In this document: positions 3,878-20,071 of the stretch, piece after piece
Layout of the letters: each line of letters begins with the position of its first letter
Numbering within the stretch: the stretch's first letter is position 1
IMG/VR virus record: IMGVR_UViG_3300046538_000096
Span: 1-36,856 of that record
DNA from: a virus
Direction: 5' to 3' (one strand)
DNA: 36,856 bases
Program-made: the position numbers and the translations under genes
The notes under the pieces: model-generated
What the model was told of the DNA's origin: nothing
The model's database searches: none
The model's input: the letters and a program-made list of their open reading frames with translations, nothing else

Positions 3878-3904
3878 CTTACTGATTAGGTGAACTTGGC
3901 GGGG

Positions 3905-3933
3905 TGAGTAGACCACAAATTACGGGTATTAAA
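3905..3933 (-). promoter_or_regulatory. Promoter-like element with 17-bp operator, upstream of primase
   Basis: On the minus strand the 17-mer ACCCGTAATTTGTGGTC (3911-3927) is followed by TACTCA as a -10 candidate. The -35 position (TTTAAT) is poor. The 17-mer matches the best copy in the window at about 11 of 17 positions. It lies immediately downstream of the terminator at 3931-3958, as expected for the promoter of a new unit. The weak -35 suggests activator dependence, or that it serves only as an operator. Confidence 0.5.
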
Positions 3934-3958
3934 AAGCCCCGACAGTGCGGGGCTTTTT
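3931..3958. terminator. Bidirectional intrinsic terminator
   Basis: The stem AAAAAGCCCCG/CGGGGCTTTTT (11 bp, loop ACAGTG) gives a T-run on both strands. On the minus strand it ends the unit of the 93-aa membrane protein. Confidence 0.9.
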
Positions 3959-3979
3959 CAACTTCCAGGCTTCGTATGG

Positions 3980-4261
3980 TTACGCGGTGCGCCAGGTCTG
4001 GTGACCCTCAGGCTCAAGCGCCGAGCCCTGTCGGAACCCGTTACTTTCGCGGCGCATGTTGGCCAGCACGTCAGGGCTCAGCGACACCTTGTCACCGAAC
4101 TTGTGCGCCAGCTCCAAGTCCAGCTTTTTGATACCGCAGGCGGCGCGGTCGCAGGCATCGGCCAGGGTCCGCAGCACCGGGTATGCAATCAGCGAGCAGA
4201 CACCAAGTGCCAGGCCGCCGAGCATAGCGAGTGCCATGCCAATAGAACGAATGATTTTCAT
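3980..4261 (-). CDS. Small membrane or secreted protein, unknown function
   Basis: 93 aa from ATG 4261, which has AAGGA about 10 nt upstream; the longer frame lacks a ribosome binding site. Residues 6-30 (IGMALAMLGGLALGVCSLIAYP) form one hydrophobic segment, either a transmembrane anchor or an uncleaved signal. It is followed by a polar tail with ADACDRAACG and LELAHKFGDKV. The gene stands alone between an operator/promoter-like element (4304-4332) and a strong terminator (3931-3958), so it is probably controlled as a single-gene unit. No family recognised. Confidence 0.75.
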   Translation of the reverse strand: MKIIRSIGMALAMLGGLALGVCSLIAYPVLRTLADACDRAACGIKKLDLELAHKFGDKVSLSPDVLANMRRESNGFRQGSALEPEGHQTWRTA

Positions 4262-4303
4262 AGAGCAGTATCCTTGCAAGGGTGGGTAAGACAAATAGAG
4301 AAG

Positions 4304-4332
4304 CCAATAGACCACAAATAACAGACAAAGAA
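4304..4332 (-). promoter_or_regulatory. Promoter-like element with 17-bp operator
   Basis: The minus-strand 17-mer GTCTGTTATTTGTGGTC (4310-4326) matches the best copy at about 12 of 17 positions and is followed by -10 candidate TATTGG. The -35 position (TTCTTT) is weak. It lies directly after the terminator at 4331-4364 and about 45 nt before the 93-aa gene. Confidence 0.55.
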
Positions 4333-4364
4333 AAGCCCCGGCGCTGGGGAAAGCAACCGGGGCT
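4331..4364 (-). terminator. Intrinsic terminator
   Basis: Stem AGCCCCGG/CCGGGGCT with a 15-nt loop, followed on the minus strand by TTTCTTTG. It closes the long operon of small genes between 6965 and 4401. Confidence 0.8.
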
Positions 4365-4400
4365 CAGGTGTAGCCAAGCAATGACAATGCACGGGCGACT

Positions 4401-4583
4401 TTACGCACTCACCTTGGCACTGTCAAGCAGCTCTTTGGCTCGCAGGTCAATGGCACTGCTCGCGTCCTTGTAACCTTCCAACCAGTGACGGCGCTCCCAA
4501 TCCTTGCAGGCTGGTGGCGGTGTGCATGGCTTGCCGCTGCGGCGCTGACTGGCCCCGCCGTGATACCAACGTGTCTGAGTCAT
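4401..4583 (-). CDS. Small hypothetical protein (60 aa)
   Basis: The start overlaps the preceding stop by ATGA, indicating translational coupling. The protein is basic in its first half (WYHGGASQRRSGKPC) with a pair of Cys residues (CTPPPAC) and a helical second half. It is the last gene of the operon before the terminator at 4331-4364. No family recognised. The position and overlap support it more than its composition does. Confidence 0.6.
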   Translation of the reverse strand: MTQTRWYHGGASQRRSGKPCTPPPACKDWERRHWLEGYKDASSAIDLRAKELLDSAKVSA

Positions 4584-4765
4584 ACGCTGTCAAACCCCTC
4601 ATTCCAAAATTTAAATTCAACCGAGTCTTTCTTGTGTGGATTGGCATCACGTCGGCTGGTGTCTGAATCAGATTGAAAGCACCCTTGAGCCAAATGCCGC
4701 TTAGCCTTTGCAGCACCCGAATCAAAAGCACACTGTTCACGCGTGTTGCTGGGTTGCTTGCTCAT
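4580..4765 (-). CDS. Small hypothetical protein (61 aa)
   Basis: ATG 4765 has AAGGA 8 nt upstream; the in-frame TTG at 4768 is less likely. The product is polar, begins MSKQPSNTREQCAFDSGAAK and ends FKFWNEGFDSV. It resembles the short, loosely structured phage proteins that often fill early operons. It overlaps its upstream neighbour by about 29 nt and is coupled to the downstream gene by ATGA. Function unknown. Confidence 0.6.
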   Translation of the reverse strand: MSKQPSNTREQCAFDSGAAKAKRHLAQGCFQSDSDTSRRDANPHKKDSVEFKFWNEGFDSV

Positions 4766-4907
4766 CAATCAGTTCCTTGTCTTTATCGTTCCAGCCGGCC
4801 AACCACCAAGACCAGGCCCATTGCATATAAGCGTTCGGGTTCGTCAACTTCCCAACGCCGTCAAGTCTTGCTTTCACGCCCAGGTAATACTGTCGCGGTG
4901 GCCTCAA
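4737..4907 (-). CDS. Small hypothetical protein, RMF-like composition
   Basis: I prefer TTG 4907, which overlaps the preceding stop (TTGA) and has AGGGG 8 nt upstream. The GTG at 4949 has no ribosome binding site. The product (56 aa) contains YYLGVKARLDG followed by YMQWAWSWWLAGWNDKD. The pattern of aromatic residues followed by G-W-x-D is typical of small phage proteins that resemble ribosome modulation factor. That resemblance is weak and the function is unknown. Confidence 0.55.
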   Translation of the reverse strand: MRPPRQYYLGVKARLDGVGKLTNPNAYMQWAWSWWLAGWNDKDKELIDEQATQQHA

Positions 4908-5281
4908 ACCGGAAACCCCTTTGCAACGTTGGTGACCACGGCGTTGCACATCTGCAAGTGATACTCAACGTCGGTGCTCGGTGTGCGTGTCTCACTGTTC
5001 TCGCCAAAACCTGAAACGTACGAACTTGTGCAAATAGCTCCGTCTGCCAAAATCTTAAACCGCGATTCAGTATCAACAATCAACCGCACGCACTGGCCCC
5101 AATTGGTCAGCGGATAAAAGTGCTTGCCGTTCGCGAACACCATGAACTCATAGCGAATGTGGCGAACGTCCACAGTGTAACCAGCCGCCAGGGCTGCGCG
5201 TGCTTGCAGTTGTAAGTCAGCCTTTGGTAATGCTGCAACATCCTCAGCGGTCACAACTGGCTTGATAGTCCCAACGCTCAT
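4904..5281 (-). CDS. Hypothetical protein, possibly NinX/DUF2591-like
   Basis: 125 aa, with GGAGG 7-8 nt before ATG 5281 and an ATGA overlap with the previous gene. The centre contains HFYPLTNWGQCVRLIV, which recalls the P-S/L-T-x-W-x-Q...P/R-L-I signature of phage DUF2591 (NinX) proteins. The N-terminus includes an Ala-rich helical stretch (DLQLQARAALAAGYTV). The similarity is motif-level only. Nothing in the neighbourhood points to a specific role. Confidence 0.65.
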   Translation of the reverse strand: MSVGTIKPVVTAEDVAALPKADLQLQARAALAAGYTVDVRHIRYEFMVFANGKHFYPLTNWGQCVRLIVDTESRFKILADGAICTSSYVSGFGENSETRTPSTDVEYHLQMCNAVVTNVAKGFPV

Positions 5282-5814
5282 CGCACAACCTCCGTTCGCA
5301 GTGCAAAGTATTCGCGGCGCTCTTCGGCATCAAGACCAACCGAGCGGTTGCGGTCAGCCAGTTCGGCAAAGCGATCAACGCGTGATTTCTCGCCGGTTAT
5401 ATGGTGTTGAATCTTTGCACCGCTTGACTCAATCGTTTCAACGAACCCGTAAGTTGCGCCGTCAACACCAACAACCTTTTCGCGATGCACGGTAACTTGT
5501 GGTCCGTCAAACGGAACAACGGGCGCCATAGTGCAACCGAACCGCATATCACCATCAGCCCCAACTATCACGCGGCGACCCTTAGTGTCGAGGAATGAGC
5601 AATACCCTGCGCCGTTCTTGCGAATGTCTTCAACCTTTGCGTCTATCTCGGCTTCATACTCGTTGGACTTCTCAACCCGACCAGCCGCTTTACCTTCGCG
5701 GTATCCACGGTTGAACATTTCGGTTGTCGCAATCACGATCACATAGACCGGCAACCACAACCCACCAGTGAGCAGGGTCAACAAGATGTGCAGCCAGTGT
5801 TTTACCTTTTTCAT
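5278..5814 (-). CDS. Membrane-anchored hypothetical protein
   Basis: 178 aa with AGGAG 8 nt before the ATG. Residues 8-30 (LHILLTLLTGGLWLPVYVIVIA) form a transmembrane segment after a Lys-rich start, so the N-terminus is probably cytoplasmic. A mixed domain follows, with paired motifs VIVGADGDMRFG and VVGVDGATYGFV that look like beta-rich repeats, and then a charged C-terminal helix. No family recognised. It may act at the host envelope early in infection (inference). Confidence 0.7.
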   Translation of the reverse strand: MKKVKHWLHILLTLLTGGLWLPVYVIVIATTEMFNRGYREGKAAGRVEKSNEYEAEIDAKVEDIRKNGAGYCSFLDTKGRRVIVGADGDMRFGCTMAPVVPFDGPQVTVHREKVVGVDGATYGFVETIESSGAKIQHHITGEKSRVDRFAELADRNRSVGLDAEERREYFALRTEVVR

Positions 5815-5815
5815 T

Positions 5816-6010
5816 TCAAGCGCTCCTAATCATGTAGCGATAAAGTTTGTTGAGGTGTGCAGCCTTTGCGCCGGTAACTTTGGCGCGGTTGCGGGTCTTG
5901 TCGCTGTGCCAGAACTTGTGGATCAACACCCGGCGCTCAGCTTCCAAGTTCACCCAGTATTGATAATCGCCTTTGCGATCAGTTTTCAACGTTCCCCATT
6001 TCGTAAGCAT
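5816..6010 (-). CDS. Small basic hypothetical protein (64 aa)
   Basis: ATG 6010 is preceded by GAGGGG at 8 nt; an in-frame GTG at 6013 overlaps the previous stop. The protein is strongly basic (MLTKWGTLKTDRKGDYQYW, HKFWHSDKTRNRAK, NKLYRYMIRSA), which would suit nucleic-acid binding. The stop is one base from the next gene's start region. Function unknown. Confidence 0.65.
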   Translation of the reverse strand: MLTKWGTLKTDRKGDYQYWVNLEAERRVLIHKFWHSDKTRNRAKVTGAKAAHLNKLYRYMIRSA

Positions 6011-6360
6011 CACTCATACCCCTCAGAACATTCTAAACAGACGTCACCCAGGTCTTTGCAGATGCTGCACTCGGGTGCCTTACCAACCTTGCGCAACTGC
6101 TTCTCGCTTGGAACAAACCCACACTTTGGAATCTTGGCGAGCACAGTGCCCTCAGGCCCCGCAGCGTGGGCAACACGAACCATATTGATCAGCAGTTCCC
6201 GCCAGTCAGTGAACGCGTGCCACTTGCACAGGTCTTGGATCATTGACCAGATGCTCAGCGGGATCGGCGTCACAATGTCACGCTCGCCCAAAGCCTCTTG
6301 ACGTGCCTTCTTGCGCGCCAATTGATCGGCTTTGTATTCAGCGTTGGACTTCTTAGCCAT
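6010..6360 (-). CDS. Hypothetical protein with C-terminal Cys cluster
   Basis: 116 aa from MAKKSNAEYKADQL; the longer frame (to 6396) overlaps a small upstream gene and has no ribosome binding site. The N-terminus is a charged helix. A central part (WSMIQDLCKWHAFTDWREL) is helical. The end has CSICKDLGDVCLEC, a C-x2-C...C-x2-C set that could bind zinc. It is part of the operon that starts at 6965. Function unknown. Confidence 0.7.
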   Translation of the reverse strand: MAKKSNAEYKADQLARKKARQEALGERDIVTPIPLSIWSMIQDLCKWHAFTDWRELLINMVRVAHAAGPEGTVLAKIPKCGFVPSEKQLRKVGKAPECSICKDLGDVCLECSEGYE

Positions 6361-6361
6361 T

Positions 6362-6484
6362 TTAAAAGGCCACCGACCAGAAACCCCAAGAACCAATCAG
6401 CACCCAAACGTACCAAAGGTGTGCCGCGTCGGGCTTGAACGCAATTGCAATCATTAAAGCGAGCCCTGCGATTGTCTTAGCCAT
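6362..6484 (-). CDS. 40-aa double-TM membrane peptide
   Basis: This very short gene begins ATG-GCT at 6484, 7 nt after the previous stop, and ends in TAA 2 nt before the next ATG. It encodes two hydrophobic segments, TIAGLALMIAIAF and LWYVWVLIGSWGFW, separated by KPDAAH. That would make a hairpin in the membrane. It fills the gap between neighbours exactly, which supports it as real. Role unknown; toxic or signalling membrane peptides of this size occur in phages. Confidence 0.6.
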   Translation of the reverse strand: MAKTIAGLALMIAIAFKPDAAHLWYVWVLIGSWGFWSVAF

Positions 6485-6490
6485 GGCAGA

Positions 6491-6859
6491 TTATTGCCCC
6501 ATCCCGAATACTGCCATGGCTATCAGCGACACCGCTAACACCAGCCCCGCACCGTACCAGATGGCCCGAACACGGCTGATGCGGTGGGTTGGGCCAAAGG
6601 CGAGCGGGGTTCCGCAAGCACGCAGTTCGTCGCGGGTCATCGGGCGCGCCATTGGCTGCAAGGTGCGATCAACTTTAGGCAGGTCGTCAAGGCTGGCGAG
6701 TAACTCACAGTTGCAAGCCAAGCGACCCTGATTGCAGTTGCACAGCGCGTGACGAGCCTGGCGGTCTTCGAAGGCTTTACCGCAAAGGCGGTTCCAACGA
6801 AACGCACGGGCTGCAAAATCTTGGTCTGTTTCGTCAGCGCGGCGACTGATGATCATCAT
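6491..6859 (-). CDS. Hypothetical protein with Cys cluster and C-terminal TM
   Basis: 122 aa with GGAG 8 nt before ATG 6859. An N-terminal region has HALCNCNQGRLACNCELL, four Cys in a C-x-C...C-x-C arrangement that could bind metal. The last 22 residues (IWYGAGLVLAVSLIAMAVFG) form a tail-anchor transmembrane helix, so the soluble part probably faces the cytoplasm. No family recognised. Confidence 0.7.
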   Translation of the reverse strand: MMIISRRADETDQDFAARAFRWNRLCGKAFEDRQARHALCNCNQGRLACNCELLASLDDLPKVDRTLQPMARPMTRDELRACGTPLAFGPTHRISRVRAIWYGAGLVLAVSLIAMAVFGMGQ

Positions 6860-6860
6860 G

Positions 6861-6965
6861 TCAAATGCTCCGTAGTGCTTGAGCGTTCAACACAGCCGCT
6901 TCCTCAGCGGTTGGATAACGCGGCTGACCCGCAAGCTTTCGCAAAATTGCTTTTAACAGTTTCAT
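6861..6965 (-). CDS. 34-aa leader gene of the small-gene operon
   Basis: The frame runs ATG 6965 to TGA 6861 and encodes an N-terminal amphipathic basic helix (MKLLKAILRKLAGQPRYP) followed by TAEEAAVLNAQALRSI. It is the first coding sequence after the promoter at 7000-7028, about 28 nt from the predicted transcription start. Its stop lies 1 nt from the next ATG, and the next gene's GGAG lies within its last codons, a typical coupled arrangement. GGGGCAGGAC precedes its ATG at short spacing. Function unknown. Confidence 0.55.
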   Translation of the reverse strand: MKLLKAILRKLAGQPRYPTAEEAAVLNAQALRSI

Positions 6966-6999
6966 GTCCTGCCCCGTGCTGTTCGTATTTGTAGGGCGA

Positions 7000-7028
7000 A
7001 CGATAGAACTCTATTAACGGTCTGTCAA
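7000..7028 (-). promoter_or_regulatory. Sigma-70-type promoter with 17-bp operator in the spacer
   Basis: On the minus strand: TTGACA, then GACCGTTAATAGAGTTC (17 nt), then TATCGT. The -35 is consensus and the spacing ideal. The spacer 17-mer matches the copy at 10942-10958 at 15 of 17 positions. It drives the operon beginning at 6965. Confidence 0.85.
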
Positions 7029-7033
7029 CAATT

Positions 7034-7059
7034 AAAAACCCCGCCAGTATCAGCGGGGT
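7034..7059 (-). terminator. Intrinsic terminator
   Basis: Stem ACCCCGC/GCGGGGT with an 8-nt loop, followed by TTTTTAATT on the minus strand. It ends the single-gene unit 7069-7590 just before the next promoter. Confidence 0.85.
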
Positions 7060-7068
7060 GATTGACCA

Positions 7069-7590
7069 TCAGGCAACAAGTCGCAACTCAGGTGGGGCTT
7101 TCTTCACGTACTTATCAAGCAGGCGTTGCACTGATGCCTCAAGGGCCTGTTGCTCTTCTGCCGGGATGCGTTCCCACACCACGAGGATGTCATGCCACAC
7201 CGCGCCGTTAAGGCTGTTGGTTGCTGCCACCTGCACACCCTTAAGCTCAGGTGGTTGTGTGGTTTGATCACCACGCGGCTTGCGCATCGCTCGGCGGATT
7301 TCTTCCATGTTGTTCAGCTTGAGTACCTTGATCCCCATCCGGTACGCACGGCGCAGCGTGGACACATAAACCTGTACGGCAGAAGGCGCCGAGATATCAC
7401 CAGGCCGTGGCCGACCTTGGCGGCTTGACCAACCGTTACGGTCGTACGCTGCTGCAACCAGGGTGTTGAACTTGTCCAAAGAGTTTGCGTCGTTAAGCTT
7501 TACAACCTCAAGAATCTGAGCGGCGCAAGATTCCAGGCCCGCATGGGCTTTGGTGATGCGGTTAAAGATTGTCGCGAGTTCAAGGCGCAT
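7069..7590 (-). CDS. Hypothetical helical protein, single-gene unit
   Basis: 173 aa from the second of two tandem ATGs (ATGACAATG; AGGGG is 9 nt from the second). Mostly helical. The centre holds NGWSSRQGRPRPGDISAPS and VSTLRRAYRMGIKVLKL, which would suit a DNA-binding or regulatory protein, but I recognise no domain. It has its own operator-type promoter (7644-7672) and its own terminator (7034-7059). That isolation suggests dosage-sensitive control. A transcription regulator or host-takeover factor is a guess. Confidence 0.75.
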   Translation of the reverse strand: MRLELATIFNRITKAHAGLESCAAQILEVVKLNDANSLDKFNTLVAAAYDRNGWSSRQGRPRPGDISAPSAVQVYVSTLRRAYRMGIKVLKLNNMEEIRRAMRKPRGDQTTQPPELKGVQVAATNSLNGAVWHDILVVWERIPAEEQQALEASVQRLLDKYVKKAPPELRLVA

Positions 7591-7643
7591 TGTCATTTAC
7601 CCCTACTGTCAGGAAGCCGGCGCGAATCGCCCGCCTGCTTACA

Positions 7644-7672
7644 AGACTAGTATGTTATTGACGGTCTGCAAC
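7644..7672 (-). promoter_or_regulatory. Promoter-like element with 17-bp operator
   Basis: Minus strand: GTTGCA, then GACCGTCAATAACATAC (17 nt), then TAGTCT. The -35 looks like TTGACA with one base lost. The spacer matches the best operator copy at about 11 of 17 positions. It sits about 54 nt upstream of the gene at 7590. Confidence 0.65.
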
Positions 7673-7691
7673 ACCATTCATCGGACAGTAA

Positions 7692-7715
7692 AAAGCCCTC
7701 AAATTTGAGGGCTTT
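7692..7715. terminator. Intrinsic terminator
   Basis: A perfect 24-bp palindrome, AAAGCCCTCAAA/TTTGAGGGCTTT. The minus strand continues with further T (TTTTTACTG). It ends the operon 10903-7723. Confidence 0.85.
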
Positions 7716-7722
7716 AGGTCAA

Positions 7723-7914
7723 TCAGGTGTTGGTTACTTCCTCATCCAGCACGTCCCTGATGTCTTGAATGAAGCCAGGCGCATCGCTGTACACCAAAGC
7801 GCCAGGGTCGAAGGCCAAGCCACGCACCAGCTCAAGCTTTTTGACCAACTTGTACAGCTTGGCCTCTGCGCGCTCACAACGACCAGATAAACCACCTTCC
7901 TCGCAAAGTCCCAT
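7723..7914 (-). CDS. Small hypothetical protein downstream of ParB-like gene
   Basis: 63 aa; its ATG overlaps the ParB-like stop as TAATG, so it is translated from the same message. The product is acidic and helical with CERAEAKLYKLVKKLELV followed by DPGALVYSDAPGF and an acidic C-terminus. It may be a partner of the ParB-like protein, judged only from the coupling. No family recognised. Confidence 0.65.
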   Translation of the reverse strand: MGLCEEGGLSGRCERAEAKLYKLVKKLELVRGLAFDPGALVYSDAPGFIQDIRDVLDEEVTNT

Positions 7915-8747
7915 TACGCTCGCACCTCATCAACCTCGGCCAACAACGCCTCGCTAACCGACACGTCATAGCCGTGCGCTTTCAAGTTCACGGCGAGTGT
8001 TCTGACCCGTTCAATCAGACGCTCTACCAGGGCCTCAGGGATGCGCTTAGGTTTGAGCACGGCGTTGGTCACCCGAGTCTTGCCAATCGCCTTGGCCTCA
8101 ACGAGAGCTGCACCCAGCACCGCCCCAGCCTTGTCGCCGTGAGTCTTCACAGCCTGCGCGGCAATAGTTGGCTTGACCTCACCGGCCTTGACCATTTCGT
8201 GCACGTCGGTGTTGCCACCGGCCAGGGTGAGAATGCGTTGAATAGTTGCGAGCGGCTTGCCGGTGCGCGTGGCTATCTGCGCAGGTGTCCAGTTCAAAGC
8301 CAGCAAGGCCGAATAGATACGACCGCGTGCCAGGTCGCCAGGGTCTTTGCGTTGTGAGCTGGTATCAAGGCGCAAGATGCGCTCAGCGTCATTGCCAATG
8401 AATGGCGTGACGTTCACCCACGCCTCAAGCACCTCGGCGTTATCTTTGTTCGGTGTGCGTGGCAGGTCGCCACGGTTATCGAGCAGCCGCAGCGCACGGC
8501 TACGCAAGTGCCCATCAACCAGCCACACGCCACCCTCAGCACGCGGACGCACTTCCAGCGCCGGATAGACGCCACCGGCCTTGATGAACGCGGCAAGCTC
8601 TTCAATGGCCTGCTCATCGCTGGCGTCATAGTCGCGGGCCAGTTCGTTAAAGCCTGGTTCCTCGTGAATGTCTTCCAGCCGCACGCTGTTAGCTTCACCG
8701 CGTTTGATCGCACCGTCACGGCGCATGGATTTAAAGGTTGGTTGCAT
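7914..8747 (-). CDS. ParB/Spo0J-like nuclease-domain protein
   Basis: 277 aa with AAGGA 8 nt before the ATG. The N-terminal part has the ParB fold hallmarks: VRLEDIHEEPGF at residues 22-33, then WLVDGHLRSRAL (75-86), a version of the G-E/H-x-R-x-R-A nucleotide-binding loop. Residues 152-176 (NWTPAQIATRTGKPLATIQRI... ) form a helix-turn-helix like the KorB/ParB central domain. No ParA is nearby, so plasmid-style partition is unlikely. Phage ParB-like proteins act as DNA-binding, nuclease or modification-linked factors. The exact job here is unknown. Confidence 0.82.
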   Translation of the reverse strand: MQPTFKSMRRDGAIKRGEANSVRLEDIHEEPGFNELARDYDASDEQAIEELAAFIKAGGVYPALEVRPRAEGGVWLVDGHLRSRALRLLDNRGDLPRTPNKDNAEVLEAWVNVTPFIGNDAERILRLDTSSQRKDPGDLARGRIYSALLALNWTPAQIATRTGKPLATIQRILTLAGGNTDVHEMVKAGEVKPTIAAQAVKTHGDKAGAVLGAALVEAKAIGKTRVTNAVLKPKRIPEALVERLIERVRTLAVNLKAHGYDVSVSEALLAEVDEVRA

Positions 8748-8762
8748 TGTCAGCGTCCTTAG

Positions 8763-10903: not shown

Positions 10904-10935
10904 TGTCATTGCTCCGTGTGCGTTCAAGTGTGCGA

Positions 10936-10964
10936 ACAATAGAACGCTAATAACGGTCTGTCAA
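10936..10964 (-). promoter_or_regulatory. Strong promoter with 17-bp operator in the spacer
   Basis: Minus strand: TTGACA, GACCGTTATTAGCGTTC (17 nt), TATTGT. Consensus -35, ideal spacing and a good -10. I use this as the reference copy of the operator. It lies directly after the terminator at 10972-10994 and drives the operon 10903-7723. Confidence 0.87.
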
Positions 10965-10971
10965 CAGGTAT

Positions 10972-10994: not shown

Positions 10995-11500
10995 AGGATT
11001 TCACGGGCTCGTGTCACAAGGTCCGGGGGCACGTGGTGCATGTTCATGTCCAGCTCAATGGCATCGGCTACAACGTCAACGTGCTGGTTCACCACAGCCT
11101 TTGCAAGCACCGCATCACGCAACCCGAGCACCGTACCAAAGTAGCGGCTGATCAACCCGTCACTGATGCCCAGCGCGGTTGCCACGCTGGCGCGGGTGAC
11201 CTTCGACAACCCATCAGCAACAGCCTGATCGAACGCATGGTCGAGGATTTCATTCTTGCGGTCAGCAGGGCTGAGGCGTGGACACCGTACAGCCAAATCA
11301 GCAGCCATGGTGCCGTTCTTAACCCCGTACTCTTTCACCGCTTCCCGAAAGCTGGCAATGCTGCCGTAGTGATTGGTCACGGCAAAGTGATAGAAGCCGG
11401 TTGCGTCACTCATAACCTTGCTGGTCAGGTGGCCCAATCCGTGTACCAAGGCCAGCGCGTGCCCCTTGATCAGTAGTTCCTGTTTCGTGTCGCGTTGCAT
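10985..11500 (-). CDS. Tandem TetR-type helix-turn-helix regulator
   Basis: 171 aa from ATG 11500, with AGGAGG at 7 nt; longer starts lie inside the nuclease gene. Residues 85-133 are a classic TetR N-terminal HTH: ILDHAFDQAVADGLSKVT, then ASVATALGISDGLISRYFG, then LRDAV. Residues 9-56 align with it without gaps: LLIKGHALALVHGLGHLT, SKVMSDATGFYHFAVTNHYG, SFREAV. The protein is therefore two TetR-like DNA-binding units in one chain, with almost no ligand-binding domain. It could bind a quasi-palindrome as a pseudo-dimer. A copy of the 17-bp operator sits in its own leader, so autoregulation is likely (inference). It is the best candidate regulator of the operator-type promoters. Confidence 0.78.
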   Translation of the reverse strand: MQRDTKQELLIKGHALALVHGLGHLTSKVMSDATGFYHFAVTNHYGSIASFREAVKEYGVKNGTMAADLAVRCPRLSPADRKNEILDHAFDQAVADGLSKVTRASVATALGISDGLISRYFGTVLGLRDAVLAKAVVNQHVDVVADAIELDMNMHHVPPDLVTRAREILAA

Positions 11501-11514
11501 CGCGCAACCTCCTA

Positions 11515-11531
11515 GTGCATTAATTACGGAC
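11515..11531 (-). promoter_or_regulatory. Operator copy in the leader of the TetR-type gene
   Basis: The minus-strand 17-mer GTCCGTAATTAATGCAC matches the reference operator at about 11 of 17 positions. It sits between a weak promoter candidate (TTGCAA, 15 nt, TATAAA, within 11534-11560) and the AGGAGG of the gene. In this place it would act as a roadblock rather than overlap the polymerase contacts. Confidence 0.45.
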
Positions 11532-11534
11532 ACT

Positions 11535-12017
11535 TTATAGACTACCTGGCCCAGTTGCAAATAACGCCCTACCGCCACCGGCAACGACCAACTCACCCCA
11601 GGTCTGTTGGGCCAACTCATGCTCATCGCCAGTGAACACCCATCCCTCTTCCTTGACCTCAACACTCAAGAAGCGGGCAATAAAATAACCTACCATCCAC
11701 TGCTCAATCTTGACCTTCTCCCAACCGATAAGGTCGGCAGACTTGATCAAATCGTTTTGCTTCTTTGACTCGTTGGCCAGGCCATAGCGCACGTAGCGCC
11801 CGCCCTTGTCAGGAAGCGCACCCACGTTGTTGCGGAATAGGTGAATGTCCTTCTGACCAGCCTCAAGCAGAATGAGGGACTGTTGGCGCCCCTCGCTGCC
11901 TAGCTGGTGATCGTCAGGGTTTGGGGTAGGCGCGTGCGTAACGCCCATCAGTGTTTCAAGTTCAAGGATGGCCCCGAAGGGCACCCCATGTCTTGCCGCC
12001 CAACTGCGCAGGATCAC
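11535..12017 (-). CDS. VRR-NUC family nuclease
   Basis: 160 aa; GTG start overlapping the previous stop as GTGA. The PD-(D/E)XK core is visible: NNVGALPDKGGRYVRYGLAN (residues 63-82), SADLIGW with D95, SVEVKEEGW with E120 and K122, and a Gln pair near 137 (ELAQQTWGELVVAGGG). This is the phage stand-alone VRR-NUC layout, a structure-specific nuclease usually encoded beside helicases and replication genes. Here it lies downstream of the SF2 helicase and may process branched DNA in replication or recombination. Confidence 0.85.
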   Translation of the reverse strand: MILRSWAARHGVPFGAILELETLMGVTHAPTPNPDDHQLGSEGRQQSLILLEAGQKDIHLFRNNVGALPDKGGRYVRYGLANESKKQNDLIKSADLIGWEKVKIEQWMVGYFIARFLSVEVKEEGWVFTGDEHELAQQTWGELVVAGGGRALFATGPGSL

Positions 12018-12889
12018 TTAGGTAACTCACCAAAGATTGCGGTGTATTGAACGCACGTCAATTGAGTGCTGTTATCAGGGTTGTAAATGCTCAGCAGCGC
12101 TCGGGCGCGTGCTTTAGCTTTCATCAACACTCGGCGCTGACGATTCAGTTTCTTTTCCAGCTCTTCAACGCGGTCATACCAACCGTGCGGTTCATCGACA
12201 CTCAAACCTGGCGCCAGCGCACCCGACTGGTAAGCCTTTTGCAGCTCGGGTGATGGCCACGGTTTCTCGTTGACAGGCTTGCCCTCATCCGGCTCAAGAC
12301 CATCGACACTCAAACCCGGCGCCGGGTAGTCAACGTTGAATTCCGGCATTGGTGGTGCTGGCCACGCTGGTTGCGCAGTTGGGGCAGTTGGGGCAGTTGC
12401 CGAGCGTGTGCGTTCGATAGAGTGCGTGACGCCATCAACCTCAACGACGTACGAGCGGCGCGGCATAGGGCCATCCTTGAACAGATCAAACCACACTACC
12501 CCGAATTGATTCACCGACACATAGTTTTCAGCAGGTAGGGCAAAGTCCCACAGCTTGCCGTTCTCAGCTTCCTCGGTGGTGATCGTCAGGGCTTGCTGTG
12601 CTGGTGGTGCTGGTGGTGCACCGGGCAACGAAGGAATGCCCATTCCAAACTCATCGGTGCTGTACGAAGGCCCGTTGCTGAAATCGGTGCGCGCCCACGA
12701 TGTGCGTTCTTCCTGCGGCTGCATGGTGTCGAAAGCGTTTGCCCGAGCGTTTAGAATTTGTTGGTGCTTTGCCTGCGAGCCGGCGTTAGGTTTGTAGGTG
12801 TGCACCCAGGCAGCGCCAGCTTTATCAACGCTCGCCCAAGTCCAGTTAGCGCCAAAAGCTTTAAAGATGTCTTGCGTTTGCATAGTCAT
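12014..12889 (-). CDS. Pro-rich hypothetical protein with repeated PGLSVD motif
   Basis: 291 aa between helicase and nuclease, overlapping both by 4 nt. Residues 1-60 and 105-155 look like small folded modules (WASVDKAGAAWVHTYKP; YVSVNQFGVVWFDLFKDG), perhaps a duplication, since both read Y/A-x-V-(D/N)-x-x-G-x-x-W. They are joined by Pro/Ala-rich linkers. The motif APGLSVD occurs twice (DNA near 12199-12219 and 12305-12325, with a nearly identical flanking sequence). The C-terminus has a basic coiled coil (RVEELEKKLNRQRRVLMKAK). Function unknown; the position suggests an accessory replication role. Confidence 0.72.
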   Translation of the reverse strand: MTMQTQDIFKAFGANWTWASVDKAGAAWVHTYKPNAGSQAKHQQILNARANAFDTMQPQEERTSWARTDFSNGPSYSTDEFGMGIPSLPGAPPAPPAQQALTITTEEAENGKLWDFALPAENYVSVNQFGVVWFDLFKDGPMPRRSYVVEVDGVTHSIERTRSATAPTAPTAQPAWPAPPMPEFNVDYPAPGLSVDGLEPDEGKPVNEKPWPSPELQKAYQSGALAPGLSVDEPHGWYDRVEELEKKLNRQRRVLMKAKARARALLSIYNPDNSTQLTCVQYTAIFGELPK

Positions 12890-14664
12890 GCTGCTTGTTC
12901 CTGTTGGTTGGTGTCGGGGAATGGTAGGTCATTAATAACGTATCCCGCAAGCAGCATTTTAGCTGTGATGCGTTCGCGTAATTCTTTGGCGTCTTGCGCT
13001 TTCAAGCCCATGGCTGCCAGCACGTCAAGTTTGAACGTGTGATAGAAGCGCATGGTGCAGCTTTCAATGTCCTCAGCCGGGAACATGCCCGCCCAACAGT
13101 TCATGCTGTGCCGCAGGTTGCGTTGCTCGCGTTGCAACTCGGCCTGCATGTTAGCGATGTTGCGGCCTATCGCGGTCCCCTGATGCTGCTGCGCGATGTA
13201 CTGCGGCTTGTCGATCTTGTTGGCAGCAGTGCGCAGGGCTGCGAGTTCCTCATCGCTGTACAGATAGATGTCACCGTCCACCACTTGCGGGCCACTGGCC
13301 TCAGTCGGCGGTGCAGGGTCTTGGCGCTTACCGCAATAGGGGCACGTGTGCTTGATGCGCTCAAAGTGCTTGGCGCACAGCGGGGCCTTGTTGTCACACG
13401 TGCGCAGTGGGATACCGTCGTCAGCACCCCCACGGCTACGGCTGGCAAGGCTCCAAAGCTTGTCTTGGTCTGGTGGCCCACCGTGGCGTATCAAGTTGCC
13501 TACGTGGTCATGGATCACCCCACGCGGCTTGTCAGACTGGCTGATCAGCATCAAGCGTTGTAGTGGTGTGTAGGTGTCCCAGGCTGCGGCAAGTATTGGG
13601 CTGATCATCAGACGCAGCACACGACCCCACTGCTGAGCGTATAGAGAGAACGAAGCGGTTGCCCTGGCCATGATGACAATCTCAATGGCCGGCAGGTCGA
13701 AGCCCTCACCGAACAGGTCAACGTTAACCAGCATCAACAGCTCACGGGCACGGAACCTGCGCAGGATGTTTCGGCGCTCGGCGCTCGGCGTGTCGGCGGT
13801 CACCAGGGCTGCGGGTACACCCGAACGGTTAAACTGGTCGGTGAGCTTCTGAGCCTCTTCAATGTTCTGCGCGAAGCAAACCCCCAGCTTGCCCATGGCC
13901 TCACTGACGTACGTCCCGACAACCTCACCAACAAAGTATTTGGAGCTACGCATCAGCGTGGCTGCTTCCTCTTTGCTCAGCTCACCTGTTGATGTCGTCT
14001 TGACTTTGGCCAGGTCCAAGTCACGAACCTTGAAGCCACGATAGTCATAGTCGGTCAGATAGCCGTTGTCGATGCACCAGCGCATGCCGGGGCCTTCAAT
14101 CATTTCGTCAACGATACCGTCAAAGTCTCGACCGAGCCCCTTGCCATCAGCGCGGCACGGCGTGGCGGTGTACAGCAGGCCGGCAACCTCGGGGCTGAAA
14201 TAATTGAAGACCTCACCCCACTTGTTTTTCTTGAGCGCGTGGTGCCCTTCGTCGATCACCCCGAGCGTTGCGCGCTTGAAGCGTTCACCCCAATCAGAAT
14301 TTTTGGACTTCACGGTGTCCACGCTGGCGATGGTCCAATCAGCTTTATTCTGGTTGATATAGCTGCGCCCGAACTCCTCATAGTGCTCGGTCTGGATGTC
14401 GGCAACCGTTGCCTTGGGTGCTGCCACCGAATGCACAATCCCCTCACGCGCAAAGGCTTTTGAGATTTGACCCACCAGCTCTTTGCGGTGGGCCATCGAT
14501 ACGCCCCAACCGTCGTGATGACGCGCCATGTCGCCCATACAGACGGTTTTACCGCCACCCGTGGGAATCACAACCATCACGTTGCGCTTGCCCCTTGGCA
14601 GCGTTCGGTGAGCGTGCCGGGTCTTATCGTTCGCTTCTTGTTGGAAGCCCCGTAAATTCGCCAT
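12886..14664 (-). CDS. Superfamily 2 (DEAD/DEAH-type) helicase
   Basis: 592 aa from MANLRGFQQE. The motor motifs are clear: Walker A IPTGGGKT (33-40), AHRKEL (58-63), DEGH (138-141), TATP (166-169), GEGFDLP (319-325), and motif VI QQWGRVLR (344-351). A C-terminal Cys set (C423, C430, C441, C444; last pair CPYC) may bind zinc. This is the type of SF2 helicase seen in phage replication modules, comparable in role to T4 UvsW. It is divergently transcribed from the plus-strand replication genes and starts the operon that ends with the TetR-type gene. Confidence 0.9.
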   Translation of the reverse strand: MANLRGFQQEANDKTRHAHRTLPRGKRNVMVVIPTGGGKTVCMGDMARHHDGWGVSMAHRKELVGQISKAFAREGIVHSVAAPKATVADIQTEHYEEFGRSYINQNKADWTIASVDTVKSKNSDWGERFKRATLGVIDEGHHALKKNKWGEVFNYFSPEVAGLLYTATPCRADGKGLGRDFDGIVDEMIEGPGMRWCIDNGYLTDYDYRGFKVRDLDLAKVKTTSTGELSKEEAATLMRSSKYFVGEVVGTYVSEAMGKLGVCFAQNIEEAQKLTDQFNRSGVPAALVTADTPSAERRNILRRFRARELLMLVNVDLFGEGFDLPAIEIVIMARATASFSLYAQQWGRVLRLMISPILAAAWDTYTPLQRLMLISQSDKPRGVIHDHVGNLIRHGGPPDQDKLWSLASRSRGGADDGIPLRTCDNKAPLCAKHFERIKHTCPYCGKRQDPAPPTEASGPQVVDGDIYLYSDEELAALRTAANKIDKPQYIAQQHQGTAIGRNIANMQAELQREQRNLRHSMNCWAGMFPAEDIESCTMRFYHTFKLDVLAAMGLKAQDAKELRERITAKMLLAGYVINDLPFPDTNQQEQAA

Positions 14665-14691
14665 CCTTTGAAATCCCCGTGAAAATAATAT

Positions 14692-14720
14692 TTGCAACCG
14701 GCGTTAATTATGCTTAGTCT
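14692..14720 (+). promoter_or_regulatory. Candidate promoter for the plus-strand replication operon
   Basis: TTGCAA, a 17-nt spacer, then TAGTCT, about 35 nt upstream of the first plus-strand start. The spacer contains GCGTTAATTATGC, only loosely related to the 17-bp operator. The same region must also hold the divergent helicase promoter, perhaps using TATTAT on the minus strand near 14685, but I see no good -35 for it. Confidence 0.5.
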
Positions 14721-14755
14721 TGCCCAACTTCACAACCACCCAGGAACACAAAGCA

Positions 14756-15697: not shown

Positions 15698-15699
15698 TC

Positions 15700-16857
15700 A
15701 TGGATACCCCACAATTCACTTTGCGCCCTAGCGCTGCTGGGTTGTGGGTTCGGTGTGCGGGCTACGCCACAATGGCCACCCGCTTTCCCGAACTCCCCGG
15801 CGACAATGAGGTACGTGAGGAAGGTACGGCGGGTCATTGGGCTGCGTTTGAAATCGGCAACAACCGACCAGTTCCAGAAGGTACGGTAGCGCCAAACGGT
15901 GTCACGCTGACTGAGGAAATTCTAGACGGTGTGGCCGAGTACCTGGCGGTCCTGCGGTCTTGGGGCTCCCCGATTTACCTTGAGTCTCAGGTTGCAATCC
16001 CAAGCATTCACGCTGAGTGCGGTGGCACCGTAGACGCGTGGTCATGGGATGCACCGAACCGCACACTGTACGTTGCAGATTTGAAGCTCGGGTATGTCCC
16101 GGTTGACCCTTTCGAGCTTTGGCAATTGCTCGCGTATTTCCGGGGGATTCTGGATTACCTGCAAGCGATTCACGGGATGTTCACCGAGCACTTCAAAGTG
16201 GTGTTCGTGATCGTGCAACCTCGCGGCTATGGTCACGACACCGTGAAGACTTGGCGGGTTAACAGTGAGCGCTTGATTCCGTACATGACCACGCTGCGCA
16301 CGGCTGCTCATAACGCAATCGCCTTTCGCGACGGTGAGTATGGTCAGCGTGTTGGGAGTGAGAAGGGTGCCTTTACGGCTGGCCCACACTGCGAGAACTG
16401 TTCAGCCAAAGCTGACTGTGCAACATTGCAAGCTGCATCACTGCAACTGATTGACGTGTCAACTGATCACGGCGCGCTTGAACTGACGTACGACCAAGCG
16501 GCTGCTGAGCTGCGCAGGTTGGACCGCGCAATCAAGGTGATGGAAGCTCGCCAGTCGGGACTTGAGGGCAAGTTGACTCACGGTATTCAGAAGGACGGAT
16601 TCATCCACCGCAATTTTGAAATGAGCGGCGGCAATGGCAAGTTGGCATGGGAAGACGGCAAGATGTTGCAGGCCATCGCCCTCGCTAAAGTGCTCGGCTT
16701 CGACATCGCAAAACCGCTACAGGCTTTGACACCAACCCAGGCAAAGGCCAAAGTTCCAGGCGCCGTACTTGACGCTTTCACGGTGCGCAAATCAGGCTCG
16801 CTTAAACTGCGCCGCCTGGCAGACAATCACGCTGACAAACTTTTCAATCAGGAATAA
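15700..16857 (+). CDS. DUF2800 PD-(D/E)XK nuclease with Fe-S cluster signature
   Basis: 385 aa, 2 nt after the previous stop. Nuclease motifs: EEGTAGHW (40-47), GGTVDAW with D112, VADLKLGY with D127 and K129, and ELWQLLAYFRG with Q142. This is the RecB/Cas4-type order. Cys residues C19 (LWVRCAGYA) and C231, C234, C240 (HCENCSAKADC) give the one-plus-three pattern used by AddB and Cas4 for a 4Fe-4S cluster. Probable role: exonuclease for DNA end processing in recombination-dependent replication, working with the SSB encoded next. The C-terminal part is helical. Confidence 0.87.
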   Translation: MDTPQFTLRPSAAGLWVRCAGYATMATRFPELPGDNEVREEGTAGHWAAFEIGNNRPVPEGTVAPNGVTLTEEILDGVAEYLAVLRSWGSPIYLESQVAIPSIHAECGGTVDAWSWDAPNRTLYVADLKLGYVPVDPFELWQLLAYFRGILDYLQAIHGMFTEHFKVVFVIVQPRGYGHDTVKTWRVNSERLIPYMTTLRTAAHNAIAFRDGEYGQRVGSEKGAFTAGPHCENCSAKADCATLQAASLQLIDVSTDHGALELTYDQAAAELRRLDRAIKVMEARQSGLEGKLTHGIQKDGFIHRNFEMSGGNGKLAWEDGKMLQAIALAKVLGFDIAKPLQALTPTQAKAKVPGAVLDAFTVRKSGSLKLRRLADNHADKLFNQE

Positions 16858-16863
16858 AAGACA

Positions 16864-18036
16864 ATGCCGATTAAAATGCTTTCCCCTACTGGCCGTATCG
16901 TTCAAGGCAACCCGCTGTTCAAGTCCCCTGTAATGGACGACGTGACCAAGCAACAGAAAATCGGCAAGGACGGTCAACCGTCGTTCAACTGGTGGATCAC
17001 TGTAGCCTTTGACAAGAAAGACCCGGCAACGTGGCCAATGATCTGCGCCATCAAGCAGGAAGCAGCAGCCGCATACCCTCAGTTGTTCCCTCAAGGCTGG
17101 AATCCGAACAGCCCCAACGAAGGTTGTGTGCGCCCTGACTTCGCGTTCAAGGTTGTTGACGGTGACGGCATGGACCTCAACGGTAAACCGCACAGCAACA
17201 AAGAAGGTTGGGGTGGGCACTACATCCTGAAAATCAGCACCTACGCAGGCACCATGAAGTGCTATGACGGTCTGCAAAACAACCTGCCAATCACCGACAT
17301 GGAAGCAATCCACACCGGCAAGTTCGTTCGCGTCTCGTTGGACATCAAGGGTAACGGCTGGACGGGTCAGGGCAACAGCAAGCCAGGTCTGTTTATCAAC
17401 CCTGATGGCGTGCAGCTCGTTGGCCACGGTGCCAAGATCAGCGGTGGTCCTGACGCTGAAACCATGTTCGCCGCGCCGGTCAGCACGTACGTTCCTGCGG
17501 GCATGTCGCTCACCGCACCGGTTGCAGCAATTGCCATGCCTGGCCAACCTATGCAGATGCCAGGTCAGGCCGCACCGCAGCCTCAGATGACCCCGGCGCC
17601 ACAACCGCAAATGCAGATGGTTGCCCCTCAGCCTGCCGCACCGGTCTACACCATGACCGCAGCAGCTCAGGGCTACACCCGTGAACAATGGCTCGCCAAC
17701 GGCCAGACTGACGAAAGCTTGATCGCTGCGGGTTACATGACCGTCAGCACCCCGGCGCCAGCGATGGTAGCGCCACAGCCTCAAATGCAGATGCAAACCC
17801 CTGCACCGATGGGCAACCAACCGCAGATGCAGGCGCCTATCGTGCAACAGGCACCAGCGCCTCAAGCACCCCCGGCGCTAGTGATGGCGACCCCTAACCC
17901 GGCGTTCACTCAGTCCGCCATTGCCCCAACCTACACCATGACCCCCGCAGCGCAGGGCTACACCCGCGAGCAGTGGTTGGCCAACGGTCAGACCGATGCA
18001 GCGTTGATCGCAGCGGGTATGATGCTCGTTGCATAA
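16864..18036 (+). CDS. DUF2815 single-stranded DNA-binding protein
   Basis: 390 aa. The first 200 residues match DUF2815-type phage SSBs: a start like MPIKMLSPTGRIVQGNPLF, then SFNWWITVAFDKKDP, GHYILKISTY, and FVRVSLDIKGNG...KPGLFINPDGVQLVG. The usual short C-terminal motif is present twice here, at residues 262-292 and 357-387, 27 of 31 identical, joined by Pro/Gln/Met linkers. Such tails usually recruit replication partners. The gene sits between nuclease and polymerase and ends just before a terminator, consistent with high expression relative to the polymerase. Confidence 0.87.
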   Translation: MPIKMLSPTGRIVQGNPLFKSPVMDDVTKQQKIGKDGQPSFNWWITVAFDKKDPATWPMICAIKQEAAAAYPQLFPQGWNPNSPNEGCVRPDFAFKVVDGDGMDLNGKPHSNKEGWGGHYILKISTYAGTMKCYDGLQNNLPITDMEAIHTGKFVRVSLDIKGNGWTGQGNSKPGLFINPDGVQLVGHGAKISGGPDAETMFAAPVSTYVPAGMSLTAPVAAIAMPGQPMQMPGQAAPQPQMTPAPQPQMQMVAPQPAAPVYTMTAAAQGYTREQWLANGQTDESLIAAGYMTVSTPAPAMVAPQPQMQMQTPAPMGNQPQMQAPIVQQAPAPQAPPALVMATPNPAFTQSAIAPTYTMTPAAQGYTREQWLANGQTDAALIAAGMMLVA

Positions 18037-18058
18037 CTGACCCCTCCCAACCTACAAA

Positions 18059-18083
18059 CCCCGGCGCGTCCGGGGTTTTCTTT
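18059..18083 (+). terminator. Intrinsic terminator between SSB and polymerase genes
   Basis: Stem CCCCGG/CCGGGG, loop CGCGT, followed by TTTTCTTT. It ends only 12 nt before the polymerase ATG and overlaps its presumed ribosome-binding region. Confidence 0.75.
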
Positions 18084-18095
18084 GAGTGCACCAAT

Positions 18096-20039
18096 ATGGG
18101 CAATTACTCCCAGGCGCCAACAGACGTTGAGTGTTATCGCAACTATTTTTTGATCAAAGCACCTGGCTACAGTTTCGAGGTTCGCCCGCATTGGCAGCTT
18201 CCAAACGTGATGGGCCTGCGGTTCTTCCTGGCCTCGCACGAAATCATCACGTTCAACGGCAAGAACTATGATGAGCCGATGATTGCTGCGTGCCTGCACC
18301 TCATCACGAGCAACCCGGCGATCACACCCACGCAGCTTTGCGCGGCGCTCAAGGCGTACAGCGACAGCATCATTGTTGGGCGTGTCAGGGGCTGGCAGTT
18401 CTACAAACAAAACAACATCCCTGAGCTACCATGGCTCAAGCACATCGACTTGTTTGAGGTGGCGCCAGGCGTGGGTATCGGCCTCAAAATGTACATGGGG
18501 CGCATGCACTCAGAAACCCTGCAAGACCTGCCAGTTGAGCCGAGTGCAAACCTGACTGAGCAGGAAATGAACATCCTTGAAAACTACTGCGGTAATGACC
18601 TGACCGGCACGCAAGGATTGAAGGATACCATCAAGGGTCGCCTTGAGTTGCGCCGCACGATCAGCGAAGACCTCGGCGTTGACGTCATGAGCAAATCAGA
18701 CGCCCAAATCAGCGAGTCAACCATTATCGCCAAACTCGGCTGGCGACCGCAGAAGGTCACCTATCCGCACGGGTATCAGTTCCACTACCAGGCCCCGCCG
18801 TTCATCAAGTTCAAGACTCAGCAAATGCAGCAGGTGTTGGCCACGGTGCTGACGAATGCGTTTACGGTCAATGATGTTGATCAGCTCAAGATGCCTGGCG
18901 AGGATGATGAGGTGTGTGACGCTGACGGACGCAAGATCAAAACGGGGATCATCATTCCCCCGGCGATCAAAGCCATCCGTGTTGCGATGGGCATCAGCGT
19001 TTACAAGTTCGGCATTGGCGGATTGCACAGCCAAGAGAAATCGATTTTTCACCTGACGGAACCGGGCAAGTGGTCGCTGTCAGACCACGACGTTGCGAGT
19101 TACTACCCGTCGCTCATCCTGCTGATGAACATGTATCCCGGCGCAATCGGTGAGGCGTTCATTGAGATTTACCGCAGGGTCTACACCGAGCGCTTGCACG
19201 CTAAAAACATGGCAGGCACGTGCAAGAAGGCCGGCGACAGCGAGGGTGCCAAGCGTTGGAAGACCATTGCCGACAGCTTGAAAATTGTGCTCAACGGCGC
19301 GTTCGGCAAACTTGGTTCGAAATACTCAATCCTGTTCGCCCCCGAGCTGCTTATCCGCACCACCATCACCGGCCAGCTCGCGCTGCTCATGCTCATTGAA
19401 GACATGGAACTTGCAGGTATCCCGGTCGTGTCAGCGAACACTGACGGCATTATCGTCAAGACGCCCCACGGCATGGAAGCGACCCGCGATGCCATTCTAA
19501 AAGCATGGGAAGCGGCCACCGGCCTTGAGACTGAGGAAACCAAATACACCGCCGTGTTTAGCAGGGATGTGAACAACTACATTGCGTTCAAGCCAGACGG
19601 CACCCACAAGGCTAAAGGGGTGTTTGGCGAGTCAGGCGTATCGCCCGAAGCCAGCCCAACCGGCAAGAACCCAGACATTGATATCTGCTCAGACGCGGTG
19701 ATCGCGTACTTGGCCAGGGGTACACCGCTTTATACAACCATCCGCAATTGCACGGACATTCGCAGGTTCCTCACCGTGGCCACGTGTAAAGGCGGCGGCT
19801 ATTGGGAAGGGACCGGTGAGGTGCTGGGTAAAACAGTTCGCTGGTATTACGGCAAGGGCTCAACGCACGCCATCAGGTCAACCAAGCTGCGTGCCGGCCA
19901 GACCATTGGCAACATGGTTGCCGGGAGTACCGGCAGTATTCCGTGCATGCGTCTACCTGCTCAGCTCCCGGCAGACATCGACTATGAGTTTTATGAGCGC
20001 GAAGCCTACAAGATGCTGGGAACAATTGGTGTTCGATAA
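18096..20039 (+). CDS. Family B DNA polymerase with 3'-5' exonuclease
   Basis: 647 aa from MGNYSQ; the frame is open further upstream but there is no good start there. Exonuclease motifs: DVECYRNYF (Exo I, D10 and E12), FNGKNYD (Exo II, N54 and D59), YCGND (Exo III, Y164 and D168). Polymerase motifs: DHDVASYYPSL (motif A, D332), KIVLNGAFGKLGS (motif B, 396-408) and SANTDGI (motif C, 447-452). Motif C lacks the first Asp of the usual DTDS but keeps the second. It is shorter than cellular family B enzymes, as is normal for phages. It probably replicates the genome from primers made by the PrimPol. Confidence 0.92.
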   Translation: MGNYSQAPTDVECYRNYFLIKAPGYSFEVRPHWQLPNVMGLRFFLASHEIITFNGKNYDEPMIAACLHLITSNPAITPTQLCAALKAYSDSIIVGRVRGWQFYKQNNIPELPWLKHIDLFEVAPGVGIGLKMYMGRMHSETLQDLPVEPSANLTEQEMNILENYCGNDLTGTQGLKDTIKGRLELRRTISEDLGVDVMSKSDAQISESTIIAKLGWRPQKVTYPHGYQFHYQAPPFIKFKTQQMQQVLATVLTNAFTVNDVDQLKMPGEDDEVCDADGRKIKTGIIIPPAIKAIRVAMGISVYKFGIGGLHSQEKSIFHLTEPGKWSLSDHDVASYYPSLILLMNMYPGAIGEAFIEIYRRVYTERLHAKNMAGTCKKAGDSEGAKRWKTIADSLKIVLNGAFGKLGSKYSILFAPELLIRTTITGQLALLMLIEDMELAGIPVVSANTDGIIVKTPHGMEATRDAILKAWEAATGLETEETKYTAVFSRDVNNYIAFKPDGTHKAKGVFGESGVSPEASPTGKNPDIDICSDAVIAYLARGTPLYTTIRNCTDIRRFLTVATCKGGGYWEGTGEVLGKTVRWYYGKGSTHAIRSTKLRAGQTIGNMVAGSTGSIPCMRLPAQLPADIDYEFYEREAYKMLGTIGVR

Positions 20040-20042
20040 GTG

Positions 20043-20071
20043 TTGACCGACCGTCATTAGTGGTCTATTCT
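20043..20071 (+). promoter_or_regulatory. Promoter with 17-bp operator on the plus strand
   Basis: TTGACC, GACCGTCATTAGTGGTC (17 nt), TATTCT. The spacer matches the reference operator at 14 of 17 and is the most palindromic copy (GACC...GGTC). It starts 3 nt after the polymerase stop and drives the small genes at 20109 and 20378. Confidence 0.85.

Follow-up and report, generated by a model that had tools for sequence, protein, structure and literature searches.

A 17-bp element within phage promoters as the candidate operator of a phage-encoded tandem helix-turn-helix TetR-type protein

Results

A 17-bp element fills the spacer of three strong promoters

IMG/VR virus record IMGVR_UViG_3300046538_000096 is an incomplete genome of a double-stranded DNA tailed phage, the 36,856 bp of which are called the window below; it carries six copies of a 17-bp quasi-palindromic element at promoters or promoter-like sequences of both strands. 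From sequence comparison we conclude, with a probability of roughly 0.7, that this element is an operator located within sigma70 promoters and bound by the TetR-type protein of the phage, presumably as a repressor. The spacer as an operator, the phage-encoded regulon and the role of the TetR-type protein had been proposed in a first-pass annotation of this DNA; the conservation of the spacer, the palindromes of related phages, the leader sites and the co-distribution of protein and sites support this proposal and fit it better than its rivals. The claim that the regulon covers most early units stands by gene order only.

All six 17-mers were present at the positions and on the strands reported in the first-pass annotation (Table 1), and a recount of their agreement with the best site gave the same 11-15 matches out of 17. 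The site at 20049, GACCGTCATTAGTGGTC, had been taken for the most symmetric one; it has 5/8 positions paired, below the 6/8 of GACCGTTATTAGCGTTC at 10942. Significance was estimated with leave-one-out matrices and 40 Markov shuffles, and is given as the number of equal or better matches expected per shuffled genome. For the spacer only, this number was 0 for sites 7006, 10942 and 20049, 0.33 for 4310, 1.9 for 3911 and 10.4 for 7650; when the flanking hexamers were included (29-mer), it was still 0 for the first three sites, and 0.05, 0.08 and 0.48, respectively, for the others. The matrix scan against shuffled sequence, proposed together with the sites as a check, thus gave enrichment in the window for 7006, 10942 and 20049, which stand on the window alone; 4310 is borderline, and 3911 and 7650, which are not enriched by spacer, need the relatives. 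A spacer matrix built from the window only was discarded as sole proof for these last two sites.

A sigma70 promoter with an internal site and 16-18 nt between the -35 and -10 hexamers was found at 7006, 10942 and 20049, where the element fills exactly the 17 nt that separate TTGACA or TTGACC from TATNNT. It was not found at 3911 and 4310, where the U-tract of a terminator (TTTAAT and TTCTTT) occupies the -35 position and the sequence fits an extended -10, TGnTCTAnT. At 7650, TTGCAG is one base nearer, which leaves a 16-nt spacer. The hexamer frame that had been ascribed to each site therefore holds for the three strong sites and fails for 3911, 4310 and 7650.

In the 3911/4310 class, the right end TGnTCTAnT is present in every relative listed, position 21 being always T and position 23 variable. 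In genome G005 the counterpart of site 3911 has a decayed left half and has kept TGnTYTACT; the primase promoter of G005 and, further off, of G014 and G015 has retained TGATTTACT/TGATCTACT with an altered left half. At 3911 and 4310, the role of promoter may come before that of operator. A sigma70-like promoter (TTGACA-17-TAAAGT, 4398-4426 minus) was also observed at the end of the open reading frame (ORF) 4401-4583, about 65 nt ahead of the terminator that ends near 4327, so that a very short RNA is possible.

The element is conserved at the same promoters in related phages

The relatives G001-G007 are 32-45 kb long, with 68-87% identity over aligned parts. With a matrix refined on G000-G007, for which shuffled genomes gave 0.13 matches above threshold each, orthologous sites recurred at the same promoters in each relative (6 in G001, 6 in G006 and 7 in G007, retained sites only), including the counterparts of 3911 and 7650; a scan of relatives had been among the proposed checks. 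Records that were partial or the most distant had fewer sites. Removal of two probable false positives left 41 sites (31 different 17-mers); they share one polarity, and almost every one lies in a promoter. T6, A8 and C17 are invariant over the 41 sites, and orthologues vary mainly at the positions where paralogues vary, which points to selection on the motif rather than to recent copying. Conservation of the spacer extends to unrelated promoters and across relatives, with variation where the consensus allows it. The -35 is not tied to the element, since at the counterpart of 20049 it is one base further off in G002 and in L002 (TTGACA-G-GACC), and at 7650 it is one base closer.

The fixed distance to the -10, the single polarity and the promoter placement would also be expected if the element were an extended promoter sequence, with no operator, read by RNA polymerase carrying a phage-made or phage-modified specificity factor, as would the persistence of the TGnTCTAnT extended -10 at 3911 and 4310 when the rest decays. 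We consider this explanation quite unlikely. First, the strong sites have ordinary TTGACA and TATNNT hexamers, and the -35 shifts relative to the element in G002 and L002. Second, none of the 30 window proteins scanned matched a sigma or RNA polymerase family. Third, the near-perfect palindromes of related phages, found in both polarities (see below), suit a symmetric dimer rather than a sigma factor.

The TetR-type protein has two helix-turn-helix units and no ligand-binding domain

The candidate regulator is a 171-residue protein of conserved sequence; the ORF call that started at 11665 was over-extended, the conserved start being MQRD at 11500. Its two halves align without gaps (local score 66, with no score above 51 among 2000 shuffles; HHalign P 7.6e-7), and by these alignments the chain is an internal duplication of a TetR helix-turn-helix (HTH). 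An AlphaFold model built from a 9-sequence alignment (predicted local distance difference test 86, predicted template modelling score 0.62) has the HTH helix pattern twice (residues 28-45 and 103-121) and then two short helices. These two HTH units and two short helices make up the 171 residues, and the C-terminal helical ligand-binding/dimerisation domain of TetR/AcrR regulators is absent. The HTH that matches TetR_N is the second of the two, not the N-terminal one, with 21.9 bits in the window (cut-off 24), 31.5 bits in G005 (L053) and 43.9 bits in phage SppYZU01. The best solved-structure matches of this second HTH were LuxR/HapR/SmcR; a Foldseek search of the PDB gave nothing below E 0.001, TetR HTH matches being top-ranked and weak. 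The protein named in the first-pass annotation thus has a real TetR-type HTH and is not an ordinary TetR, having a duplicated HTH and no ligand-binding domain.

Homologues with a single HTH, 98-111 residues long, are encoded by Pseudomonas phage Psp6 and by G011-G015, and those of SppYZU01 and Scuro have two HTHs. No relative of the regulator was found in the genome contig collection, so that this search pointed to no host.

Sites co-vary and co-occur with the TetR-type protein

The phages encoding a single-HTH homologue, which are more distant and represent independent lineages, have palindromic sites: AACCGTTAWTAACGGTT in G013 (in three perfect copies), the AACCGTTAGTAACGGTT type in G012, AATCATAAWTTATGATT in Psp6 and G011, and AATCRTAATTAACGATT in G014 and G015. 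In five IMG/VR single-HTH phages the 17-bp palindrome pattern gave 11-21 matches per genome, counted on both strands so that one palindrome can count twice, versus 0-1 for a reversed control. Many of these palindromes have a -35-like hexamer on one side and a TA.. -10 box on the other, as in TTGTCA-AACCGTTATTAACGGTT-TACTAT and TTGACA-AATCATAATTAACGATC-TATACC. The best sites have 7-8/8 positions paired, after refinement with a symmetric matrix that favours symmetry, the perfect copies being already present in the raw pattern search; imperfect ones are found in either polarity, as AATCGTTAATTATGATT and AATCATAATTAACGATC ahead of -10 boxes in G014 illustrate. In the tandem-HTH lineage, in contrast, a mean of 4.5/8 positions are paired, and positions 3, 5, 6 and 7 distinguish the two halves of the site (p 0.0002-0.001 by permutation). 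The matrix that found this one-polarity set was directed, and no promoter-framed site of reverse polarity appeared in the scans. These differences are most simply explained if the symmetric site of a homodimer turned asymmetric once two heads had fused and diverged.

A site-like palindrome lies 8-31 nt upstream of the start of the TetR-like gene in 15/15 genomes, related genomes not being independent; the background fraction is 0.0004 in the window and 0.0004-0.017 across genomes. In the window, this is the additional 17-mer at 11515-11531, for which the 17-mer matrix gave 15.2 bits, the maxima of shuffled sequence being 13.2 +/- 1.9. All genomes with sites encode the TetR-like protein, and the two site-free controls, G008 and G009, lack it.

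This distribution bears on two other candidate binders. The ParB-like protein of the window is of a DNA-binding type, is encoded inside the regulon and is conserved in close relatives, and it might bind the sites in the manner of the KorB-type ParB relatives of plasmids; this is very unlikely, as it was not found in G012, G013 and G015, all of which have clear sites. TetR-type operators are common in bacteria, so that a host TetR-family regulator might be the binder, the phage borrowing a host operator to make its early genes follow the state of the host. The site, however, differs in sequence from one phage lineage to another (GACCGT.., AACCGT.., AATCAT..), and every time the phage itself encodes a TetR HTH and has a site ahead of the gene for it; we regard a host regulator as extremely improbable.

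Genome setting and other features

Megablast of the window against the phages collection gave no match; judged by DNA polymerase, the closest named phage is Psp6 (50% identity). The replication genes point away from each other on either side of about position 14,700. Those on the minus strand encode helicase, nuclease, the TetR-like and ParB-like proteins and primase; those on the plus strand encode exonuclease, single-stranded DNA-binding protein and DNA polymerase. Assignable structural genes are on the minus strand. No integrase, as a temperate phage with a lysogeny repressor and stoperators would have, was found among the 30 window proteins scanned, the record being incomplete.

The site of the divergent promoter at 14692-14720 is degenerate, 1-bp-shifted and below the matrix threshold, yet nearly invariant in G000-G007, and Psp6 has CGTAAATTATG in the same place. 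Two matches were set aside. The element at 34836-34864 (minus; 30 bits in the promoter matrix; strongly conserved, in G001-G004, G006 and G007) overlaps, by eye, an AAGGGCG...CGCCCTT hairpin and the stop codon of the major capsid gene; it was ascribed to hairpin conservation, and its match to the promoter matrix is probably due to chance. The match at 12047-12075 (plus) is antisense within a gene, was not seen in relatives and was treated as chance. A site-like sequence, ATACGTTATTAATGACCTACCAT, occurs at 12921-12943 (minus) and is conserved in G004, G005 and G007, the G005 copy being preceded by TTGACG; its position in the window is the 3' end of the coding region for the helicase, right ahead of the next gene, and coding constraint may account for its conservation.

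The structured RNA ahead of the primase gene has 8 double-changed pairs in its long stem and 1 in its apical stem, 9 in all, with 100% of cells paired and a covariation score that none of 500 shuffles reached. A 9-bp complementarity between its 5' end (GCCAAGTTC) and its apex (GAGCTTGGC) is invariant, which is suggestive of a pseudoknot. The RNA matched no Rfam family and had no match in the phages collection; it was found in about ten contigs and, among the IMG/VR contigs found, in this phage group only. It may act as a leader or attenuator for the primase gene, or it may be a small RNA.

Table 1. Sites, promoters and other features of the window. Site coordinates follow those of the promoter or 29-mer where both are given.
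Feature	Coordinates	Strand	Description	Orthologues
Promoter TTGACA-[GACCGTTATTAGCGTTC]-TATTGT	10936..10964 (site 10942-10958)	minus	29-mer scored 38.6 bits with the leave-one-out matrix, which no shuffle matched; upstream of ORF 10939/10899 to ParB-like unit	G001-G004, G006, G007, G010
Promoter TTGACC-[GACCGTCATTAGTGGTC]-TATTCT	20043..20071 (site 20049-20065)	plus	Upstream of small ORFs 20109-20584	G001-G004, G006, G007
Promoter TTGACA-[GACCGTTAATAGAGTTC]-TATCGT	7000..7028 (site 7006-7022)	minus	Upstream of ORF 6859-6491 unit	G001-G004, G006, G007, L046
Weaker site [GACCGTCAATAACATAC]	7644..7672 (site 7650-7666)	minus	-35 TTGCAG, 16-nt spacer, -10 TAGTCT; upstream of ORF 7596-7069	G001-G004, G006, G007
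Site [GTCTGTTATTTGTGGTC]	4304..4332 (site 4310-4326)	minus	Immediately behind terminator U-tract; extended -10 TG-G-TCTATT	
Site [ACCCGTAATTTGTGGTC]	3905..3933 (site 3911-3927)	minus	Immediately behind terminator U-tract; extended -10 TG-G-TCTACT; upstream of structured RNA and primase	
Candidate autoregulatory site GTCCGTAATTAATGCAC	11515..11531	minus	15 nt upstream of ATG of TetR-like gene	
TetR-type tandem-HTH protein, 171 residues	10985..11500	minus	In helicase operon; no ligand-binding domain	
ParB-like protein, rival candidate DNA-binding factor	7914..8747	minus	phrog_1033, E 2.3e-52	
Divergent promoter TTGCAA-[CCGGCGTTAATTATGCT]-TAGTCT	14692..14720	plus	Helicase (minus) on one side, exonuclease/single-stranded DNA-binding/polymerase operon (plus) on the other	
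Covarying structured RNA, about 100 nt	3801..3900	minus	In the primase leader; immediately downstream of site 3911	

Discussion

In the mechanism that we propose, the operator would lie in a phage promoter of the host (sigma70) type, where the bound protein would block RNA polymerase. The binder would be the phage's own TetR-type HTH protein, the gene of which is preceded by its own site. With two diverged TetR HTH domains per chain, the tandem protein would be a covalent pseudo-dimer, reading the asymmetric quasi-palindrome in a fixed direction (left half GACCGTNA, right half GAMCRYTA), probably with one chain per site. Host polymerase would fire the early promoters, the regulator would accumulate, and it would then shut these promoters and its own gene, acting as an inducer-free negative-feedback timer. 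The usual TetR induction would be impossible because there is no ligand pocket, so that the concentration of the regulator would be the signal. Binding, repression, timing and the one-chain stoichiometry are what we infer from the arrangement of sites and gene.

The same protein might bind the same sites as an activator, or as a roadblock or insulator behind terminators, instead of repressing promoters. Its closest solved HTH matches, TetR proteins of the LuxR/HapR type, can activate as well as repress, the minus-strand sites come after a stem-loop or a U-tract, and 3911 and 4310 have no -35. For most regulators, however, occupancy of the -35/-10 spacer is the position of a steric repressor, and we consider such a role unlikely.

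Several points weigh against an operator read by a single-chain repressor. The statistics of the window by itself give little weight to 3911 and 7650, and the conservation of the 3911/4310 class may be mainly that of extended -10 promoters. Overlapping promoter constraints could partly cause the asymmetry of the sites, and the tandem protein could dimerise via its C-terminal helices. The leader site is imperfect and has a low score in some genomes (4.7 in G011, 7.0 in Psp6). Finally, KsaM-C1, PLPE, SppYZU01 and Scuro, which have homologues of the regulator, share a different, lineage-specific spacer element that overlaps the -35, TTGACRnnnnYGTCA, present at several promoters of L079 (Scuro), L059 (SppYZU01), L060 (KsaM-C1) and L061 (phiPLPE) and followed in Scuro by TTAAGRAATA; the operator is therefore not uniform across the family.

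More generally, a large group of phages might control its early transcription by a stripped-down, inducer-free TetR HTH; in some lineages this HTH would have been duplicated to a single-chain pseudo-dimer with two diverged heads, and the operators of those genomes would have lost symmetry and gained a fixed polarity along with it. We give this scenario even odds. No published description of the phage regulon was found in a search of the open literature, and the system is a candidate master switch of early transcription for phages whose regulation was not found described there. The natural series from single HTH and symmetric site to tandem HTH and asymmetric site makes regulator-operator co-evolution after domain duplication directly testable, and TetR-type DNA binders that are small, need no inducer and consist of one chain would be useful parts.

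Comparison with known systems

The phage system resembles TetR/AcrR repressors in its TetR_N-type HTH and in the palindromic sites of about 17 bp located in promoters; it differs from them in the absence of a C-terminal ligand-binding/dimerisation domain, in its tandem HTH and in being phage-encoded. A precedent for two TetR heads per chain is Mce3R of Mycobacterium tuberculosis, which is described as an autoregulated double TetR-family repressor with two non-identical HTHs per chain and a non-palindromic operator, 21 helices, a ligand-binding domain and 25-bp sites (PMC11667970). The phage protein likewise has two non-identical HTHs in one chain; its candidate sites are asymmetric, and one of them lies ahead of the regulator's own gene. 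Unlike Mce3R, it has 171 residues and candidate sites of 17 bp, with neither a ligand-binding domain nor a four-helix-bundle core in the model, for which its chain is too short; sequence kinship between the two was compared as far as TetR_N.

Homologous HTHs are found in small phage TetR-like proteins (Psp6_00026, SppYZU01_43, Scuro_24, KsaM-C1 and phiPLPE_14), the records of which name no operator. The gene order helicase ... TetR-like ... primase is common to several of these annotated phages. Most of the annotated homologues have a single HTH in about 92-111 residues, unlike the tandem protein of the window, and those of SppYZU01 and Scuro are tandem too. The stoperators of L5-type mycobacteriophages are many short, asymmetric sites of one polarity for a phage regulator. 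The sites described here share these features of shortness, asymmetry and single polarity; they differ in lying in promoter spacers, whereas those of L5 are scattered within genes.

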